Positions 26,922 to 39,679 of a DNA stretch of 64,000 nucleotides are shown here, piece after piece (the stretch's first letter is position 1; every line of letters starts with the position of its first letter). Position numbers and translations under genes: made by a program. The DNA lies in contig NZ_AQXU01000015.1 of assembly GCF_000376945.1 (NCBI RefSeq), positions 1-64,000 on the forward strand, written 5' to 3'. The notes under the pieces are model-generated. The model saw only the letters and a list, made by a program, of their open reading frames with translations, was not told the origin of the DNA and did no database searches. This DNA comes from Leeia oryzae DSM 17879 (GTDB lineage Bacteria; Pseudomonadota; Gammaproteobacteria; Burkholderiales; Leeiaceae).

Positions 26922-27125
26922 ATGACCGTGTTAAAACTACATAAACCCATGCTGCCCGTGATGGCACTGGCTGGCATGTCGATGCTGCTAAGCGCATGCG
27001 TCACGATCAATATCTATTTTCCTGCCGCGGCAGCCGAAAAAGCAGCCGACAGGATTATTGATGAAGTTTTACAAGTGAAACCCGTCGTGAAACCTGCAAC
27101 CGAAAAACCGGCTTCAGCGAGTTAA
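26922..27125 (+). CDS. ynbE: YnbE-family outer-membrane lipoprotein
   Basis: A 67-residue lipoprotein with lipobox LLSAC, Cys26 being the predicted modified residue. After it comes VTINIYFPAAAAEKAADRIIDEVL, the segment conserved in YnbE. In E. coli YnbE sits in the outer membrane and joins the end of YdbH by strand pairing. The gene lies 70 bp after ydbH and 15 bp before ydbL, as in the E. coli operon. Confidence 0.85.
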   Translation: MTVLKLHKPMLPVMALAGMSMLLSACVTINIYFPAAAAEKAADRIIDEVLQVKPVVKPATEKPASAS

Positions 27126-27140
27126 GGGAAAGAGCACATC

Positions 27141-27566
27141 ATGAAATACACACAATTTTTTGCCAGTCTGATGATGGGCGCAGCCTTGCTGTCCATTCAG
27201 CCGGTCTATGCCGCAGCAGACCTGGATGTCAGTACGCCGGCCGTGCAATCCATCACCCAGAGCATGAAGACCCGAACCGGCAAACTGAGCGAATATTATG
27301 CGTCAGGCGCGGTCGGGTTTGCCAAAGATGGCAATCTGGTTGTTCGGGATGCCAGCCTGGTGCCGCTGCCTAAACGTCAGGAGGTCTCACGACTGGTTGC
27401 TGATGAAAATCAGGACCGGGCGGCACTGTACCGTGAAATCGCCCGTGCCAACAACCACCCGGAATGGGAAGCCGATATTCGCCAGACCTTTGCACAGCGC
27501 TGGGTGCAGCGGGCCCAGTCTGGCTGGTGGGTACAGCAGAGCAATGGCAGCTGGTCGCAGAAATAA
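27141..27566 (+). CDS. ydbL: YdbL-family periplasmic protein (DUF1318)
   Basis: A 141-residue exported protein with signal peptide ending near residue 25 (VYA-AAD). The mature part contains the motif RTGKLSEYYASGAVGFAKDG and RDASLVPLPKRQEVSRLV typical of YdbL/DUF1318, with the ASRANHEW-like segment IARANNHPEWEADI. In E. coli YdbL assists correct YdbH-YnbE assembly. Third gene of the envelope-lipid module. Confidence 0.85.
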   Translation: MKYTQFFASLMMGAALLSIQPVYAAADLDVSTPAVQSITQSMKTRTGKLSEYYASGAVGFAKDGNLVVRDASLVPLPKRQEVSRLVADENQDRAALYREIARANNHPEWEADIRQTFAQRWVQRAQSGWWVQQSNGSWSQK

Positions 27567-27604
27567 CCCCATTTACAATACCCGTTTTAGTGAAGGGATA
27601 AAGC

Positions 27605-27949
27605 ATGCGCCGTTTCCTGACCCCGCTGTTGCTGGTGGCCATGGGTGTGATCTGGTTGCTGGCCGAACTGGACATGGTGGACGCCAGTACCATCTTTTGG
27701 CCGGCCGTTCTCGGCCTGGTGGGGATATCCGTCTGGCTGGACGATGGCATCAACCGTAACAGTTTCCCGTTGGGTAGCGGTTTTTTGCTTGCAGGTGCCC
27801 TGATGGCCTGGCGTGCCATGCATGACATCCGTTTCGGCTTGCTGATGCCCTGGTGGATGATTGGTATGGGTGTTGTACTGCTGGTCAACCGTAGTGGCGT
27901 CATTCCGCCTGCCGCCAACCGTGGCAAAGCGAAACGAGACGTTGAATAA
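27605..27949 (+). CDS. Small four-helix membrane protein (LiaF-TM-like / DUF5668)
   Basis: A 114-residue protein with four predicted membrane helices (about residues 4-20, 30-45, 55-72 and 80-95) and a basic C-terminus. The pattern RRFLTPLLLVAMGVIWLLAELD and FWPAVLGLVGISVWLDD resembles the membrane module of DUF5668 proteins. Function unknown. It starts 38 bp after ydbL and ends 14 bp before dsbB, so it likely belongs to the same operon. Confidence 0.6.
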   Translation: MRRFLTPLLLVAMGVIWLLAELDMVDASTIFWPAVLGLVGISVWLDDGINRNSFPLGSGFLLAGALMAWRAMHDIRFGLLMPWWMIGMGVVLLVNRSGVIPPAANRGKAKRDVE

Positions 27950-27963
27950 TTATCTGGATAAAC

Positions 27964-28473
27964 ATGATTAATACCTTACTTGGCATCTTGCCGAAAAGGC
28001 GGTGGGTGTATCTGGCCGCTGCTGCTGTCTGTGCCGGTCTTATCGGGTTCGCCCTCTATCTGCAGTATTACAAGTATCAGGAGCCTTGTCCGCTTTGCAT
28101 GTTGCAGCGTGTTGTCATCATCCTGATGGGGATTCTGTTTTTTATCGCAGGTGTCCATAACCCGGGGCGGCATGGTGCGCGCGTCTATGGCTGGATCATT
28201 ACGCTGACCGGTCTGCTGGGGGCTGGCATTGCTGCACGGCACGTCTGGATTCAGTACCTGCCGCCCGAGCAGGTGCCGGTATGCGGGCCTGGGCTCGATT
28301 ACATACTGCAGACCATGCCGTTTGGTTCCGCCATCCTGCAGGTACTGCATGGTTCCGGCGAGTGCGCCGACAAATCCTGGATGTTCCTCGGCTTGACCAT
28401 TCCCGGCTGGACCTTCCTGTTCTTCCTGTTTTTATCTGTACTGGCTTTATTGCTGCCAAGAAAGTCATCATGA
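27964..28473 (+). CDS. dsbB: Disulfide bond formation protein DsbB
   Basis: A 169-residue inner-membrane protein with four helices that re-oxidises DsbA and passes electrons to quinone. The redox pairs are Cys42-Pro-Leu-Cys45 in the first periplasmic loop and Cys107/Cys134 in the second. DsbA is not in this window. The stop codon overlaps the next start as ATGA, so the ferredoxin gene is translationally coupled. Confidence 0.93.
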   Translation: MINTLLGILPKRRWVYLAAAAVCAGLIGFALYLQYYKYQEPCPLCMLQRVVIILMGILFFIAGVHNPGRHGARVYGWIITLTGLLGAGIAARHVWIQYLPPEQVPVCGPGLDYILQTMPFGSAILQVLHGSGECADKSWMFLGLTIPGWTFLFFLFLSVLALLLPRKSS

Positions 28474-28793
28474 CCCAAGCTGCCTCCTTTTTTGACAAGC
28501 ATGTGTTCTTCTGCTGCAACCAGCGGGCGCCAGGAGAGTCTTGTTGCAATAACTTCGGTGCGACCGAGATCAAGAATTACGCCAAAGACAAGATCAAGGC
28601 TTTAGGCCTGTCTGGTGACGGCAAGATTCGTATCAACCAGGCGGGCTGCCTGGGGCGCTGTGACGATGGCCCCGTGCTGGTCGTGTATCCGGAAGCCGTC
28701 TGGTATACCTACATCGACAAAGACGATATTGACGAAATCGTGGATTCCCATCTGGTGAACGGCAATATTGTTTCTCGGCTAAAACTGGACTGA
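28470..28793 (+). CDS. Thioredoxin-like [2Fe-2S] ferredoxin family protein
   Basis: A 107-residue protein of the NuoE/Shethna-type thioredoxin-fold ferredoxin group. Candidate cluster ligands are among Cys15, Cys16, Cys25, Cys26, Cys60 and Cys64; the RINQAGCLGRCDDGPVLVV segment is characteristic. It likely carries electrons in the cytosol; the partner is unknown. The true start is the ATG at 28470 overlapping the dsbB stop by 4 bp. A much longer open frame upstream runs antiparallel in composition to dsbB and is not a coding extension. Confidence 0.85.
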   Translation: MTQAASFFDKHVFFCCNQRAPGESCCNNFGATEIKNYAKDKIKALGLSGDGKIRINQAGCLGRCDDGPVLVVYPEAVWYTYIDKDDIDEIVDSHLVNGNIVSRLKLD

Positions 28794-28926
28794 TTCATTC
28801 ATGTGATCAGTACAAATACTGATATTCAAGAAAAATTTTTCAGTAAAAACCATGGCGCAATGTTCGTTGATATGACATATTAATGATCGTTGTGCCATTT
28901 GCGTCTCTTCCTAGAGCCATTACCCA

Positions 28927-29553
28927 ATGAAAATCGACACACAAACCCTGTTTATTGACGGTCCGGTCGGCAAGCTGGATACCATTGTACTGACCTCTGC
29001 ATCCCAGCCTGTTCGCGGCATTGCACTGATTGCCCATCCCAACCCTACCCAGGGCGGTACCAACACCAACAAGGTTGTACAAACGCTTGCCAAAGCCTTT
29101 GCCAGAAAAGGTTTTGTTGCACTTTGCCCTAACCTGCGTGGTGTAGGAGAGAGCGACGGCGCTTTCGACGCCGGCATTGGCGAAACGGATGACATGGCGG
29201 CCGTGCTGGCTTATGCAAGAGCTACCTATGGGCAGCTCCCCCTGATGCTAGCGGGTTTTTCGTTCGGGACTTTCGTTCAGTCAAACCTGGCACACCGGTT
29301 GCAGCAACAGGGCGAGGAAATCTACGGCATGCTGCTGGCCGGCCCTGCTGTCAAACGCTTTGCCCTGCCAGAAGTGCCAGCCCATACCCTGATCATCCAT
29401 GGCGAAGAGGATGAAGTCATTCCGCTGGCCGACGTACTGGACTGGGCGCGGCCGCAGAAGCTGCCGGTAGTCGTTCTGCCGGGCGTCAGCCACTTTTTCC
29501 ATGGCCATCTTGGCCAATTGACCGAATGGGTTAATCTCAAATGGCCGTCCTAA
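28927..29553 (+). CDS. Alpha/beta hydrolase
   Basis: A 208-residue cytosolic hydrolase. The nucleophile elbow GFSFG has Ser112, the acid is near Asp162 in HGEEDEVIP, and the catalytic His is His189 in GVSHFFHG. The HPNP segment near residue 37 and NLRGVGESDG are typical of the small serine-esterase group found beside NodIJ-type ABC transporters. Substrate unknown. Its end overlaps the ABC ATPase start by 13 bp, implying coupled translation. Confidence 0.85.
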   Translation: MKIDTQTLFIDGPVGKLDTIVLTSASQPVRGIALIAHPNPTQGGTNTNKVVQTLAKAFARKGFVALCPNLRGVGESDGAFDAGIGETDDMAAVLAYARATYGQLPLMLAGFSFGTFVQSNLAHRLQQQGEEIYGMLLAGPAVKRFALPEVPAHTLIIHGEEDEVIPLADVLDWARPQKLPVVVLPGVSHFFHGHLGQLTEWVNLKWPS

Positions 29554-30452
29554 AGGTTGAACACCTTTGCAAGCAATACGCCAGCGAGCTGGTCGTCAAT
29601 CAGCTTAGCCTGACTATCCCGGCTGGGATCTGTTTCGGGCTGCTGGGCCCGAATGGTGCCGGAAAAACCACTACGCTGAAGCTTTGCCTGGGACTGATTA
29701 CACCAGATAGCGGTTCGATTGAACTGATGGGCATGCCGGTGCCGGATGCCGGTCCCAAGGTGCGTCTTCGCGTCGGGGTAGTGCCCCAGTTTGATAATCT
29801 GGACCCGGATTTTTCAGTTGCCGAGAACCTGATCATTTTTGGCCGCTATTTTGGAATTAAACCCGACGTGGTTCGGGCCAACGTGCCAGAACTGCTGGCG
29901 TTTGCCGGGCTGGAAGGCAAAGAAAAAAGCCGGATCAGGGAGTTGTCTGGCGGTATGCGACGCCGGCTAACGCTGGCGCGTGCGCTGGTGAATGATCCGG
30001 ACGTCATTTTCCTGGATGAACCTACAACCGGGCTGGACCCGCAAGCCCGGCACCTGATCTGGGAGCGTCTGCGCCAGCTGGTGGCCAAAGGCAAAACCCT
30101 GATCCTGACTACCCACTTCATGGATGAAGCCGAGCGGCTGTGCAATTGTCTCGCCATCATGGATCATGGCAAGATCATTGCCGAAGATTCGCCAAAGCGT
30201 TTGATCGAAAACCTGATTGAACCGGTGGTGGTAGAAGTATTTGGTGACGGGCTGGATGACTGGCTTGCCACTGTTGCCACGGGCACCGGATGCCGGATAG
30301 AGCGCGCAGGGGAGACCATTTTCTGCTATGGGCAGGATGCTACTGCCGTGCTGCAAAGCATGGTGACTTTCCCCGGATTAAAGTCCGTGGTGCGTCAAGC
30401 TAACCTGGAAGACGTATTTATCAAGATTACCGGCCGGGAGTTGCGCGATTGA
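29541..30452 (+). CDS. ABC exporter ATP-binding protein, NodI type
   Basis: A 303-residue ABC ATPase: Walker A GPNGAGKT (36-43), signature LSGGMRRR near 135-142, Walker B VIFLDEPTTGLDP. The C-terminal extension of about 80 residues is like that of NodI/DrrA-type ATPases paired with ABC-2 permeases. Its matching permease is the gene at 31996, but a diguanylate cyclase gene lies between them. The stop codon overlaps the next start (TTGA). Confidence 0.9.
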   Translation: MAVLKVEHLCKQYASELVVNQLSLTIPAGICFGLLGPNGAGKTTTLKLCLGLITPDSGSIELMGMPVPDAGPKVRLRVGVVPQFDNLDPDFSVAENLIIFGRYFGIKPDVVRANVPELLAFAGLEGKEKSRIRELSGGMRRRLTLARALVNDPDVIFLDEPTTGLDPQARHLIWERLRQLVAKGKTLILTTHFMDEAERLCNCLAIMDHGKIIAEDSPKRLIENLIEPVVVEVFGDGLDDWLATVATGTGCRIERAGETIFCYGQDATAVLQSMVTFPGLKSVVRQANLEDVFIKITGRELRD

Positions 30453-31945
30453 GCAGCTTCTCCCAAGCCGGCGGACGGTATCGCCACTGGTTGAGATATC
30501 TTGCATTGCCGCTGGCACTGCTTGCAGCCGTGTGGCCATTGACTGCCCTGGCTGACCCGGGTACTTACCCGTTGCTCACTTCTTCGGTGTGGTCCGGCTT
30601 GTCGCCGCAGATTGTGCTGGTGGTGGTGGCGATCGTCTTGAGTATTTCTTCATGCATTGATGCCTGGTTGCATAAGGACTCTACGTACCTGCTGTTTACT
30701 GGATTTATCCTCAGTCTGTCTTTATGGGTGGTGATTTTCTCAGGCGAGCATGGGGCTGACTTACGCTACTGGCTCTGCATGCTGGCGCAGGCGCTGGCCA
30801 GCATCCTGATCATCTTGCTGTGCAGAAGCTGCCTGGACTTGCCGGCGCATGCGTATGGTCTGAACCGTATCTCCATCTATCTGGCGATCCTCACCGGCAT
30901 CATCGCGCTACCCGCCATACTGTTTTCCGGCATGCTCGGCCTGATGCTGGTCATGAGCGTTTGTGCCCTGTCGCTTTTCCTGACCTTTGTGATCTGTGTC
31001 ACGTTGCTGAAGGTCCGTTTTGCCGAGGCAATCTGGTCCGGATTCGCTGTGCTGTTGCTGATGCTGGCCGATATGGCGGCCATGGTCTCTCTGTTGCAGA
31101 CCAACAGCTTTCTCCCGGAGAAACAATCGGTGTTTCTGGTGCTGACGACGTTCTTGTGCATGGCGATTGCCGTGGCACATCGTCGTGGTCAGATGCAGGA
31201 AGAAGCCATTCTGGCATTACAGCAAATGTTTCTGGAGCAATTGGGCAAAGTCCAGTTTCTGGAAAGCACCGAGCAGGTCCTTAACCGGCGGCTGGAGCAG
31301 CGGGAATCAAAGCTGGATAGCCTTTCACGCCAGTTGGCAGAACATGTGAAGCGCGGCCGCCTGCTGTCTCGGCGTCTGTCAGAGAATGAAGACCTGCTGA
31401 AACAATTTGCTTATCACGATGCGTTGACGGGTTTGCCAAACCGCTTGCTGTTTGCCGACCGCCTGGAACGGACGCTGGACGAAGAAACCGCGCCGGCGGC
31501 ATCCGGCATGATTGCGATCCTGTTGCTGGATCTGGATGATTTCGGCCGCATCAATAGCCGGAAAGGGCCGCGCTACGGTGATCGTGTATTGGCTGCACTG
31601 GCCAAACGCCTCCAGCAGTTGTTGCCACCAGACACCTGTCTGGCCCGTTTTGGCGGGGACGAATTTGCTATCATGCTGCACCCTCTGGCGTCTCAGGACG
31701 TCGGACGCTTGCTGGCCAGAACCTTGATTCAGGACCTTGCGGTACCTCTGGATGTGGAAGGCGAGAAACTGGTGCTAAGCTGTTCGGTGGGCATGTCGGT
31801 CTTCCCCGTCGACGGTCGTGACCTGGATGCACTGATACAACAGGCGGAAGGTGCGCTTTATCGGGCCAAATCCACGGGTACCGGTGCGTTGGTGTGTGCG
31901 TCCGGTGACGAGGTAAACCCCGGTCATTTTGTACGGGAAGCATGA
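30449..31945 (+). CDS. Membrane diguanylate cyclase (GGDEF)
   Basis: A 498-residue protein. An N-terminal signal-like or membrane segment (18-36) is followed by about seven membrane helices (52-70, 80-97, 107-125, 141-160, 162-187, 195-216, 226-243), a coiled linker (about 245-320), and a GGDEF domain (about 321-490). The active site GGDEF is intact at 402-406 and DALTGLPNR starts the domain, so it probably makes c-di-GMP. No RxxD inhibitory site lies five residues before GGDEF. It starts with TTG overlapping the ABC ATPase stop. Confidence 0.85.
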   Translation: MSSFSQAGGRYRHWLRYLALPLALLAAVWPLTALADPGTYPLLTSSVWSGLSPQIVLVVVAIVLSISSCIDAWLHKDSTYLLFTGFILSLSLWVVIFSGEHGADLRYWLCMLAQALASILIILLCRSCLDLPAHAYGLNRISIYLAILTGIIALPAILFSGMLGLMLVMSVCALSLFLTFVICVTLLKVRFAEAIWSGFAVLLLMLADMAAMVSLLQTNSFLPEKQSVFLVLTTFLCMAIAVAHRRGQMQEEAILALQQMFLEQLGKVQFLESTEQVLNRRLEQRESKLDSLSRQLAEHVKRGRLLSRRLSENEDLLKQFAYHDALTGLPNRLLFADRLERTLDEETAPAASGMIAILLLDLDDFGRINSRKGPRYGDRVLAALAKRLQQLLPPDTCLARFGGDEFAIMLHPLASQDVGRLLARTLIQDLAVPLDVEGEKLVLSCSVGMSVFPVDGRDLDALIQQAEGALYRAKSTGTGALVCASGDEVNPGHFVREA

Positions 31946-31995
31946 TGCTGCCTATACATCCATAATACATCGGCATCCAAACATAAACAGGGCGA

Positions 31996-32757
31996 ATGAT
32001 GTTTAACCAACGAGCACTTGCGGTCTGGCTGCGTAATTTCTGGGTATGGCGCAAACTGGCCGTCCCGTCCGTGCTGGGCAATATTGTCGAACCCATGCTG
32101 TACCTGCTGGGCCTCGGCTATGGACTGGGAAGTCTGTTGCCCAACGTGGCCGGGTTTCCGTATATCCACTTTCTGGCGGCCGGTATCGTCTGCCAGAGCA
32201 CCATGAATTCCGCCACCTTCGAGGCGCTGTACTCGGCGTTTTCACGTCTGCATGTGCAAAGAACCTGGGAAGCCATCATGCATGCGCCGGTCTCGCTGGA
32301 CGAGATCCTGATGGGGGAGTGGTTATGGGCGGCCAGTAAAAGCCTGCTATCCGGGTGCGCCATCTTGCTGGTGCTGGTCGTGTGGGGTATTACCTCGCCG
32401 CTACATGCGTTAGCCGTGGTGCCTGCCATTTTGCTGACCGGGCTGTGTTTTGCGGGTATGGGTCTGGTGATCACCAGCGTCTCGCCCAACTACGATTTTT
32501 TCATGTATTACTTCACATTGGTGATCGGCCCGATGCTGTTCGTCTCCGGCGTGTTTTATCCGGTTACCCAGCTGCCGGTATGGCTGCAATGGTTTAGTCA
32601 ACTGCTGCCGCTTACCCATGCGATATCCCTGATTCGGCCGTTGGTACTGGGAGAAAGCCTGACACTCGCCTGGTTGCATATCCTGGTGTTGTTGCTTTAT
32701 GGCGGTATCGGATTCCAGTTATCCCGCAAACTGGCCCGAAAGCGGCTTCTGAGCTGA
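31996..32757 (+). CDS. ABC-2 type exporter permease, NodJ type
   Basis: A 253-residue inner-membrane permease with six membrane helices, of the ABC-2/NodJ group. SKSLLSG, PISLDEIL-like PVSLDEILMGEWLWAASK and the conserved VSGVFYPVTQLPVWLQW segments are seen. It should pair with the ATPase at 29541 to export a lipid, polysaccharide or drug-like compound. The 50-bp gap after the cyclase gene shows no terminator. Confidence 0.87.
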   Translation: MMFNQRALAVWLRNFWVWRKLAVPSVLGNIVEPMLYLLGLGYGLGSLLPNVAGFPYIHFLAAGIVCQSTMNSATFEALYSAFSRLHVQRTWEAIMHAPVSLDEILMGEWLWAASKSLLSGCAILLVLVVWGITSPLHALAVVPAILLTGLCFAGMGLVITSVSPNYDFFMYYFTLVIGPMLFVSGVFYPVTQLPVWLQWFSQLLPLTHAISLIRPLVLGESLTLAWLHILVLLLYGGIGFQLSRKLARKRLLS

Positions 32758-32877
32758 CATTCGGCGGTGTTTGGCCGGCGGGACAGATGCGGGTTTTACC
32801 CCTTATATGGTGAGCTGATGCAACAGACCGATCGAAAAGTGCATGCGGACGTTTTCCAGAAGGTCAGTTTGCGGTAA

Positions 32878-34551
<1,674 letters not shown>

Positions 34552-34554
34552 TCC

Positions 34555-35394
34555 ATGCAGTTATGCGGATTTGAGGTAGGTCTTAACCAGCCATTCTTTC
34601 TGATCGCAGGTCCTTGCGTCATCGAGGGAGAGCAGTTCTCCATCGATACGGCCGGCCAGCTGAAAGAAATTGCAGACAGTCTGGGTATCCCGTTTATTTT
34701 CAAATCTTCATTTGATAAGGCAAACCGGAGCTCGGGGACCTCATTCCGCGGCTTTGGCATGGATGCAGGTCTGGAAATCCTGGCCAAAGTACGTGACCAG
34801 ATTGGCGTACCTGTCCTGACAGATATTCACGATATCGATCAGATCAAGCCGGTTGCTGCCGTGGTTGATGTCTTGCAGACGCCAGCTTTCCTCTGCCGTC
34901 AAACGGACTTTATCCAGGCCGTAGCGTGTTGCGGCAAACCGGTCAATATCAAAAAAGGCCAGTTCCTTGCCCCATGGGACATGAAAAACGTGGTGGAAAA
35001 AGCCAAGCAAGCCAATGGCGGGCTGGATAACATCATGGTGTGTGAACGCGGTGCGTCTTTTGGCTACAACAATCTGGTATCTGACATGCGTAGCCTTGCC
35101 GTGATGCGTGATACCGGATGCCCGGTGGTGTTTGATGCAACGCACTCCGTACAGTTGCCAGGCGGGCAGGGTACGAGTTCTGGCGGTCAGCGCGAGCATG
35201 TTCCGGTACTGGCACGTGCAGCGGTCGCTGCTGGCGTGGCCGGCTTGTTCATGGAAACCCATCCTGATCCTGCCAAGGCGTTGTCGGATGGACCAAATGC
35301 GTGGCCGCTTCCTAAAATGAAGGCGCTTTTGCAAACCTTGCAGGCGATAGATGCTGTCGTCAAATCGGGAGAATGGATTGAAAATGGGGTCTAG
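34555..35394 (+). CDS. kdsA: 3-deoxy-D-manno-octulosonate 8-phosphate synthase
   Basis: A 279-residue aldolase condensing phosphoenolpyruvate with arabinose 5-phosphate to make KDO 8-phosphate for lipopolysaccharide. Motifs include [22 protein letters not shown], and the metal/substrate segment [20 protein letters not shown]. Presence of KdsA indicates a Gram-negative outer membrane with LPS or lipooligosaccharide. Confidence 0.97.
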
Positions 35395-35395
35395 A

Positions 35396-35872
35396 ATGTC
35401 AGATGCAAAATCGCTTGATTTGATTGTAACCAGAAGCAGCAGCAAGCATGCGGCGGCCATCATGTTGTTGAGTGAAATGGAAGCCGAGCTGGTGGGGCGC
35501 TATGGCGATTATGAAATCAGCCCCTTCCGCCTGTCGGATGTCGACAAGCCAGGCAATGCGTTGTACCTTGCTACCTGTGATAATGCCTTGGTTGGTTGTG
35601 GCGCGCTAAAACCCATCGAAGCCGATACGGTTGAAATCAAACGCATGTATGTGCGTTCTTCTTTCCGTCGTATGGGGGTTGCCAGCCGCCTGTTGTCAGA
35701 ACTGGAAAAAGCAGCCAGACATTTTGGTTACCACCGAATCGTGCTGGAGACCGGTAACCGTCAGCCGGAAGCGGTCGCCCTGTACGAGCGCCACGGATAT
35801 GTCCGGATTCCTGCCTTTGGCGAATACGCCAAAGAGCCTCGAAGCATCTGTTTCGAGAAAGTACTGCCATAA
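35396..35872 (+). CDS. GNAT-family N-acetyltransferase
   Basis: A 158-residue acetyltransferase. The acetyl-CoA-binding loop reads RRMGVASRLL, preceded by the strand VEIKRMYV and followed by the C-terminal RIVLETGNRQPEAVALYERHGY. Acceptor unknown. The ATG at 35396 immediately follows the kdsA stop; an earlier in-frame ATG at 35384 would overlap kdsA. A hairpin follows before eno. Confidence 0.85.
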   Translation: MSDAKSLDLIVTRSSSKHAAAIMLLSEMEAELVGRYGDYEISPFRLSDVDKPGNALYLATCDNALVGCGALKPIEADTVEIKRMYVRSSFRRMGVASRLLSELEKAARHFGYHRIVLETGNRQPEAVALYERHGYVRIPAFGEYAKEPRSICFEKVLP

Positions 35873-37909: not shown

Positions 37910-39679
37910 ATGGCGGAATTAACGAATCCCACCGAAATCGCACGTGAAACGCTCAAGCAACTGGCGCTCAACCGATTGCTGCCCACACCCGACAATTACC
38001 GGAAGATCTATGCAGAGATTTCTGGCGGAGAGGGTGCGGAGATGCATCCCGTGGTGGAACTGCTGGTGGAGCGCTTGTCTTTGCTGCCCAAACCCGCTTT
38101 CGAGATTCAGCGTCTGAAACAATCGCTGGAAGAGTCTGAGGCGTCAGGTAACTGGCTGCAATGGGCGGACCGCTTTGTGAATGGTGCAGCCGGCACGGAA
38201 AGCGAAGAACCAAATGCGCAGGTCAAGCTTGGCTGGTCGGATTTGATTCGTGACCTGATCAAGCAATGGGATCTGAGGCAGGCAGGCTGGACGACTTCCC
38301 GCAAAAAAGAAGCGCTGGAAAAGGTTTTGATCAATTTTGGGGCTCGCCCCAGTGAATTGAATGAAAAGCTGGGCGCACTCGTCCGGGCGTGGTCAGAGAA
38401 TGTCCCCCTTGATGATGACGTGATGGATGTTGGCGAGGAGACTGCTGCTGCACCGGTCGGCACAGAGGAGGCGGGAGAGGTCTTCTATGCCTGGCGGGAC
38501 TTGTTGATCTACACGCTGGAGTATGGTGTCGTCGGTCGGTTGTCGGCTGTCAGTGATTTGCATGAAGAAGCGCTTGCACTGGTGCAGCGTCTGAAGGAAA
38601 CCAATGACCTGAAGATGCTGGAATCTTTTTCGGCCATGGCCAGAAAGTTCTGGTTGAAGCTTGAGCTGAGAAATGAATCAGACCAGACGTTGATGCTGGG
38701 TTTGCAGCGCCTTTTGCGTCTCCTGGTCAATAATATTGCCGATCTGATCGTCGATGATGGCTGGATGCAGGGGCAGGTAGAGATTATCCGCGCCATTATC
38801 GATAAACCGCTTGATAGCCGCTTCCTGTATGAAATGGAAGAGTCGCTGTCAGAGCTTATCTTCAAGCAGGGTCATCTCAAACAGAGTCTGGTCGATGCAA
38901 AGCACACTTTCAAGAACCTGATCACCAGCTTTATCGACCGCCTGGGGGCGATGGCCGAGCATACCGGTTCTTACCACGACAAGATTGTTACTTACTCCGA
39001 TGCCATCCGGAACACCGACGACCTTACCCAGATCAGCATGATTGTAGATCAGCTCATGGACGATACACGCTCCATGCAGCTTGATATCTTGCGATCCAGA
39101 GACGAGTTGTTACAGGCGCGGGAGGAGGCCAGCCTGGCCTCCGACAAGATTAGCGCGCTGGAAAAAGAAATTGAAACCATCTCTGCACAGGTGAGGACCG
39201 ACCAGCTGACGGGGGCACTAAACCGCCGTGGCCTGGAAGAAACTATGCAGATGGAACTGTCCCGTGCCAACCGCGAGCATCGTGCCTTGTCCGTCGCCTT
39301 GCTGGATATTGATAACTTCAAGAAACTGAATGACCGCCTGGGGCACCAGGCAGGCGATGAGGCATTAAGCCATCTGGCCAAGGTTATTACCGATACGCTC
39401 CGGCCGACAGATTCGATTGCCCGTTACGGCGGTGAAGAGTTTGTCATTGTGCTGCCTGCCACGGCGTTGTCTGAGGCCGTGCAGGTGATGCAACGCGTGC
39501 AACGTGAGTTGACCAAGCGTTTTTACTTGCGAAAGAATGAACGGGTGCTCATCACCTTTAGTTGTGGCATTTCTCAATACCGGGAAGGTGAAGATGAGCA
39601 TGCGGTCCTGAATCGGGCGGATATGGCCATGTACAAAGCCAAGAGTGCGGGCAAGAACCGGGTCGAGGTCGAAATGTGA
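37910..39679 (+). CDS. Soluble diguanylate cyclase with helical N-terminal region
   Basis: A 589-residue cytosolic protein. Residues 1-400 are mainly helical, with an acidic Ala-rich linker near 170-190 and a coiled segment about 395-430; no known sensor domain is recognised. The GGDEF domain spans about 428-585, with active site GGEEF at 507-511 and inhibitory site RPTD at 498-501 exactly five residues before it. It should make c-di-GMP under product inhibition. It sits upstream of the flagellar cluster, separated by a terminator. Confidence 0.85.
   Translation: MAELTNPTEIARETLKQLALNRLLPTPDNYRKIYAEISGGEGAEMHPVVELLVERLSLLPKPAFEIQRLKQSLEESEASGNWLQWADRFVNGAAGTESEEPNAQVKLGWSDLIRDLIKQWDLRQAGWTTSRKKEALEKVLINFGARPSELNEKLGALVRAWSENVPLDDDVMDVGEETAAAPVGTEEAGEVFYAWRDLLIYTLEYGVVGRLSAVSDLHEEALALVQRLKETNDLKMLESFSAMARKFWLKLELRNESDQTLMLGLQRLLRLLVNNIADLIVDDGWMQGQVEIIRAIIDKPLDSRFLYEMEESLSELIFKQGHLKQSLVDAKHTFKNLITSFIDRLGAMAEHTGSYHDKIVTYSDAIRNTDDLTQISMIVDQLMDDTRSMQLDILRSRDELLQAREEASLASDKISALEKEIETISAQVRTDQLTGALNRRGLEETMQMELSRANREHRALSVALLDIDNFKKLNDRLGHQAGDEALSHLAKVITDTLRPTDSIARYGGEEFVIVLPATALSEAVQVMQRVQRELTKRFYLRKNERVLITFSCGISQYREGEDEHAVLNRADMAMYKAKSAGKNRVEVEM

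Follow-up and report, generated by a model that had tools for sequence, protein, structure and literature searches.

A 7TMR-DISM-like GGDEF gene between the ATPase and permease genes of a NodIJ-like transporter in Leeia oryzae

Results and Discussion

We analyzed a stretch of 64,000 nucleotides (hereafter the window) from Leeia oryzae DSM 17879, comprising positions 1 to 64,000 of contig NZ_AQXU01000015.1 (assembly GCF_000376945.1), in which the gene for a GGDEF protein, a predicted diguanylate cyclase, lies between the genes for the ATPase and the permease of a NodIJ-like ATP-binding cassette (ABC) transporter. With somewhat better than even confidence, we read this arrangement as the insertion of a receptor cyclase of the 7TMR-DISM type into a housekeeping operon, with which it is probably co-transcribed, so that the arrangement can be explained without any dedicated coupling to export. 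This explanation is favored because a related genome has the cyclase without the transporter, the cyclase is less constrained than its neighbors, and the insertion site takes other cargo elsewhere. A sequence-only reading of the window had tied synthesis of cyclic di-GMP (c-di-GMP) to export by this transporter, perhaps of a polysaccharide or lipid product. Such a tie is unsupported given the arrangement in that relative, the unrelated genes found at the same junction in other genomes, and a hydrolase-ATPase overlap that is common without any cyclase; no finding points to either kind of substrate.

The genes concerned and the parts of the cyclase are as follows (positions in the window; aa, amino acids):

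28927..29553, + strand: alpha/beta hydrolase, 208 aa (Pfam Hydrolase_4/Abhydrolase_1; orthologues in L071 and L072)
29541..30452, + strand: NodI-like ABC ATPase, 303 aa (ABC_tran; NodI models)
30449..31945, + strand: GGDEF protein, 7TMR-DISM-like without ectodomain, predicted diguanylate cyclase, 498 aa (GGDEF; orthology)
30497..30556, + strand: signal-peptide-like hydrophobic segment of the cyclase, residues 17-36 (hydropathy)
30611..31183, + strand: membrane region of the cyclase, residues about 55-245, read as seven helices (hydropathy; PF07695 below cut-off)
31409..31882, + strand: GGDEF domain of the cyclase, GGDEF motif intact (profile match, residue alignment)
31996..32757, + strand: NodJ-family ABC-2 permease, 253 aa (TIGR01291; ABC2_membrane)

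The locus in three related genomes

The family is represented by three genomes, that of the window (G000) and two relatives (G001 and G002). The cyclase was found at the locus in all three of them, and the transporter in two (G000 and G002). G002 has the gene order hydrolase-ATPase-cyclase-permease-pyrG; it shares the TTGA overlap with the window, and 27 bases separate its cyclase and permease genes. The order is therefore not confined to the window, being shared by one relative, and an assembly artefact was dropped as an explanation because it is identical in two genomes. In G001 the hydrolase gene is joined to an orthologous cyclase gene by a TGATG overlap and followed by a DUF2189 gene on the opposite strand, a PilZ gene, and pyrG. 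Searches of this genome gave neither an ATPase at 1e-80 nor a permease at 1e-55, its top permease-like match being 4.5e-7. G001 is placed outside the other two, because sequence identity is highest between G000 and G002 for both PyrG (93.6%, against 90.5% for G000-G001 and 89.5% for G002-G001) and the hydrolase (78.7%, against 73.1% and 70.5%, respectively).

Two further features of these genomes were observed. The G001 PilZ gene (E 2.6e-6; L072:6208-6612, minus strand), whose domain belongs to a family of c-di-GMP receptors, stands where the relatives have the permease gene, separated from the cyclase gene by the DUF2189 gene on the other strand. GGDEF matches number 63 in the 3.79 Mb of G000, versus 30 in G001 and 45 in G002.

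The hydrolase gene is a same-strand neighbor at the locus in all three genomes, and in G001 it overlaps the cyclase gene with no ATPase gene between them. These facts would suit a functional pair in which the cyclase senses a product or a substrate of the hydrolase and the transporter is incidental. We consider such a pair quite unlikely, since the hydrolase gene precedes the ATPase gene without a cyclase across the order sample described below, and simple loss of the ATPase gene would make the hydrolase the neighbor by default.

Orthology and divergence of the cyclases

In both relatives the window cyclase finds the locus copy as its top match (8.1e-64 in G002 and 2.6e-54 in G001), and the G001 locus cyclase has the window cyclase as its top match in G000 (1.5e-53). 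In a tree of 103 of the 138 GGDEF domains (the three locus domains plus 40 of the 62 others in G000, 40 of 44 in G002 and 20 of 29 in G001, mainly the top-scoring ones), the three locus cyclases form an exclusive clade with a support of 0.954, within which G000 and G002 stand together (0.825). Because of this clade, the simplest reading is that the cyclase gene would have been acquired once, before the three genomes split; independent insertions in the three genomes are contradicted by it and were dropped. At three homologues from outside the genus (L012, L013 and L023), the about 4 kb covered gave no hit to any of the other eleven proteins encoded at the locus.

The cyclases of G000 and G002 are only 33% identical over 366 aligned positions, whereas identity between these genomes is 51-94% for the other eleven proteins of the locus (ATPase, 74%; permease, 76%). 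By region, cyclase identity is 27.5% for the signal and membrane part, 40.3% for the coiled coil, and 35.7% for the GGDEF domain. When G000 and G002 are compared, 21 GGDEF domains pair as reciprocal-best matches with a median identity of 52%, and the cyclase ranks lowest; it is second lowest of the 12 pairs between G000 and G001 and lowest of the 10 between G002 and G001. These ranks serve as a lead only, because the reciprocal-best set omits 22 G000 domains, mostly low scorers, and some of its pairs are not orthologues. A second GGDEF gene of the window (39197-39661) has reciprocal-best relatives close to the same locus in G002 (70% identity) and G001 (63%), and is thus far better conserved than the cyclase.

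Domains and catalytic residues

The GGDEF domain of the window cyclase is matched by PF00990 with 124 bits (cut-off, 23.8; E 6.2e-36). Its match to the 7TMR-DISM_7TM family (PF07695) is weak, at 18.6 and 22.5 bits versus a cut-off of 29, the latter match covering 30626-31183 (E 1.8e-4). Hydropathy indicates a segment resembling a signal peptide, followed by hydrophobic stretches that can be read as seven helices. The seven helices of the sequence-only reading are reproduced in this way if the broad segment at 139-196 is counted as two, and a low-confidence single-sequence structure prediction (mean predicted local distance difference test score, pLDDT, of 45) agrees, giving weak support to the helices alone.

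The G001 cyclase is a complete 7TMR-DISM receptor, with PF07696, PF07695 (109.9 bits) and PF00990 all above their cut-offs. In the G002 cyclase, the sole match above cut-off is GGDEF; PF07695 gave no match, membrane segments were seen by hydropathy, and no signal-peptide-like segment rose above the hydropathy threshold. A search across the genomes found PF07696 (DISMED2) in the G001 cyclase and in neither the window nor the G002 cyclase; DISMED1 was not seen in the window cyclase by the Pfam scan, no search having been directed at that domain. We infer that the ectodomain would have been lost in the G000/G002 lineage.

Residues D361, D363, N369 and D378, which we take to be the Asp and Asn residues of the metal and guanine sites, and the GGDEF motif at 402-406 are invariant across the three orthologues, and all three reading frames are open despite the strong divergence. 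Lysine is usual after D-x-D-x-F in GGDEF domains, and an RxxD inhibitory site before the GGDEF motif is common in diguanylate cyclases, though not obligatory. The three orthologues have Gly, Gly and Arg in place of this lysine, and inspection by eye of the usual place before GGDEF revealed no RxxD site in any of them. Together with the lowest rank among the G000-G002 pairs, these departures would fit a decaying or regulatory-only protein that has lost c-di-GMP synthesis, a possibility that the open frames and the invariant metal-site and GGDEF residues make improbable. With its membrane helices, coiled coil and catalytic residues kept, the window cyclase has most likely remained active in c-di-GMP synthesis at the membrane.

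Gene layout and probable co-transcription in the window

Open reading frames, the sequence itself and domain searches confirm that the GGDEF gene lies between the ATPase and permease genes, and that the four genes from the hydrolase to the permease run in the same direction across 28927-32757. Both overlaps pointed out from the sequence alone are present: the 3' end of the hydrolase gene overlaps the ATPase gene by 13 bases, and the TTG start of the cyclase gene overlaps the TGA stop of the ATPase gene (ATTGA), with GGGAG just upstream. A gap of 50 bases separates the cyclase gene from the permease gene, 3' of which lie pyrG, kdsA, a GNAT gene, and eno (names read from translations alone). In a consensus scan of 27000-35500, both promoter-like sites (6, versus a shuffle mean of 5.1 with a standard deviation of 2.3) and terminator-like sites (10, versus 9.0 with a standard deviation of 3.0) occurred at chance level.

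Because the order and the start/stop overlap are conserved in G002, and no promoter or terminator of its own stands out, co-expression is likely, and the cyclase gene is probably co-transcribed with the operon. The tight coupling proposed earlier is thus likely as far as expression is concerned, and its extension to export is unsupported. The permease scored 249.6 bits with TIGR01291 (NodJ family), above the cut-off of 206.65, whereas the ATPase has NodI models as its nearest matches yet remains below all three of their cut-offs (421.7 versus 521, 381.6 versus 549, and 360.9 versus 424).

The ATPase-permease junction across the order

In an order sample of 399 genomes, the permease reached E ≤ 1e-55 in 169 and the ATPase reached E ≤ 1e-80 in 171; adjacency was counted on the best 150 of the 169 permease matches and the best 150 of the 171 ATPase matches. 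Both genes were present in 141 genomes among the matches listed, on one contig and strand in 136 of them and on different contigs in 4. The distance between the two matches was at most 300 bases in 117 of the 136 genomes, which bears out the expectation that they are normally adjacent, and exceeded 300 bases in 19, including G000 (1546 bases) and G002 (1502 bases). Family f20 includes six genomes (L073 and L075-L079) with 2.7-8.1 kb between the two genes and a seventh (G306) in which they are encoded on opposite strands, about 60 kb from each other; the two transporter halves therefore need not adjoin.

A profile built from the three locus cyclase domains was applied to the 134 other genomes wherever the gap exceeded 300 bases. 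It detected no GGDEF domain at the junction in any of these 17 loci, and the remaining 117 gaps would be too short for such a domain (about 480 bases). The inserts at these 17 loci encode MscL (four loci), a B12-type radical SAM protein (four), a 4HBT-type thioesterase (two), another radical SAM protein (one), Uma2 (one), an open reading frame without significant Pfam match (one), and, each accompanied by other genes, a cytosine methylase (one) and a thymidylate-synthase match (one); two loci (G144 and G186) hold no convincing gene. One member of each kind was scanned against Pfam (two for MscL), and the others were assigned by tblastn. With at least six kinds of insert elsewhere, the junction has therefore repeatedly taken unrelated genes. 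The mscL genes lie between NodI-like ATPase and NodJ-like permease genes in L082, L083, L084 and L088, representing four genomes of two other families.

The overlap between the hydrolase and ATPase genes was surveyed at 46 loci, 37 of which (G002 among them) were measurable with start codons set by rule. It is common without the cyclase, as 24 of the 37 loci overlap, 17 of them by an identical 13 bases, and for this reason it was dropped as evidence on the role of the cyclase.

GGDEF genes near the permease in other genera

A profile search with the cyclase domains found a GGDEF gene at 3 of 30 permease loci (L041-L070). In L069, a metagenome-assembled genome of Rhodocyclaceae, it lies on the opposite strand, beyond further genes. 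In two genomes of genus g47 (G048 and G091) the protein differs in its membrane part and carries a GGEEF motif (374 aa in G048, encoded 204 bases 3' of the permease gene); its genes are located at L191:3170-4294 and L192:2912-4069. Because tens of GGDEF genes per genome are frequent here, we judge informally that one such neighbor among about 30 permease loci is not surprising.

Signaling coupled to the transporter, in which the cyclase responds to or controls NodIJ-type export, would account for the order and overlap retained in G000 and G002, for the missing ectodomain where the transporter exists, and for the GGDEF gene of the two g47 genomes. We nevertheless regard it as unlikely, given that G001 retains the cyclase without the transporter, that the cyclase diverges much faster than the ATPase and the permease, that unrelated genes occupy the junction elsewhere, and that so few permease loci hold a GGDEF gene, one of these on the other strand behind further genes.

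A proposed history of the locus

Under the favored explanation of an insertion, a receptor cyclase gene would have entered the hydrolase-NodI-NodJ operon in the ancestor of the genus, as its position and the tree suggest, and the cyclase would be made from the operon transcript, consistent with the overlap and with the absence of other signals. The G000/G002 lineage would then have shed the ectodomain while keeping the membrane helices, coiled coil and catalytic residues, leaving c-di-GMP output to be set by operon expression or intramembrane signals, and the G001 lineage would have lost the transporter genes and kept the full receptor.

Several points weigh against this explanation. The G001 cyclase finds the locus copy as its top match in G002 by a narrow margin (2.0e-33 versus 2.7e-32 for the next match), and the proposed order of events rests on a single contrast among three genomes. 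The order and the overlap persist in two species despite 33% cyclase identity, longer than a pure passenger might last. Moreover, G048 and G091 have their GGDEF gene behind the permease gene on the same strand; because it differs from the window cyclase, GGDEF genes near a NodIJ-like transporter arose at least twice, and this case keeps transporter-coupled signaling alive.

The ectodomain is absent where the transporter is present (G000 and G002) and present where it is absent (G001), which is one contrast only. It could reflect sensing by proxy: with the signal now delivered by the NodIJ-type pair or by the hydrolase, the ectodomain would have been shed, and c-di-GMP output would read transport activity. 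We think this very improbable; if true, it would mean a transporter replacing a receptor's own sensor.

Under the insertion explanation, the locus offers a small, readable case of c-di-GMP enzymes entering housekeeping operons and losing sensors. It also calls for caution, as tight placement within a transporter operon does not by itself show what a cyclase controls: here a relative without the transporter still keeps the cyclase.

Comparison with known systems

Seven-helix 7TMR-DISM receptors are described in the pertinent part of PMC6107284 as fused to intracellular modules and/or DISMED1/2 ectodomains, and NicD and RgsP are named there as members with c-di-GMP output domains; a passage of PMC8846402 gives DISMED2 as predicted to sense carbohydrates. 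The window cyclase resembles these c-di-GMP receptors in its signal-peptide-like segment, a membrane part read as seven helices, coiled coil and cytoplasmic GGDEF domain, and the G001 orthologue has the full architecture above cut-off. It differs from them in having no DISMED2 ectodomain and in a membrane region that scores below the family cut-off. Because of the "and/or" in that description, the copies without an ectodomain fall within the class as described there.

A limited search of open-licence literature found no description of a cyclase gene between NodI- and NodJ-like genes. Rhizobial nodIJ is traced to an origin in beta-proteobacteria in the relevant part of PMC4447401 (citing Aoki 2013). 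The window system is unlike the NodIJ exporters in that its ATPase falls below all NodI cut-offs and a cyclase gene lies between its halves, and it is like the beta-proteobacterial NodIJ and NodIJ-like exporters treated there in its NodJ-family permease, its ATPase closest to NodI, and two halves that are usually neighbors.

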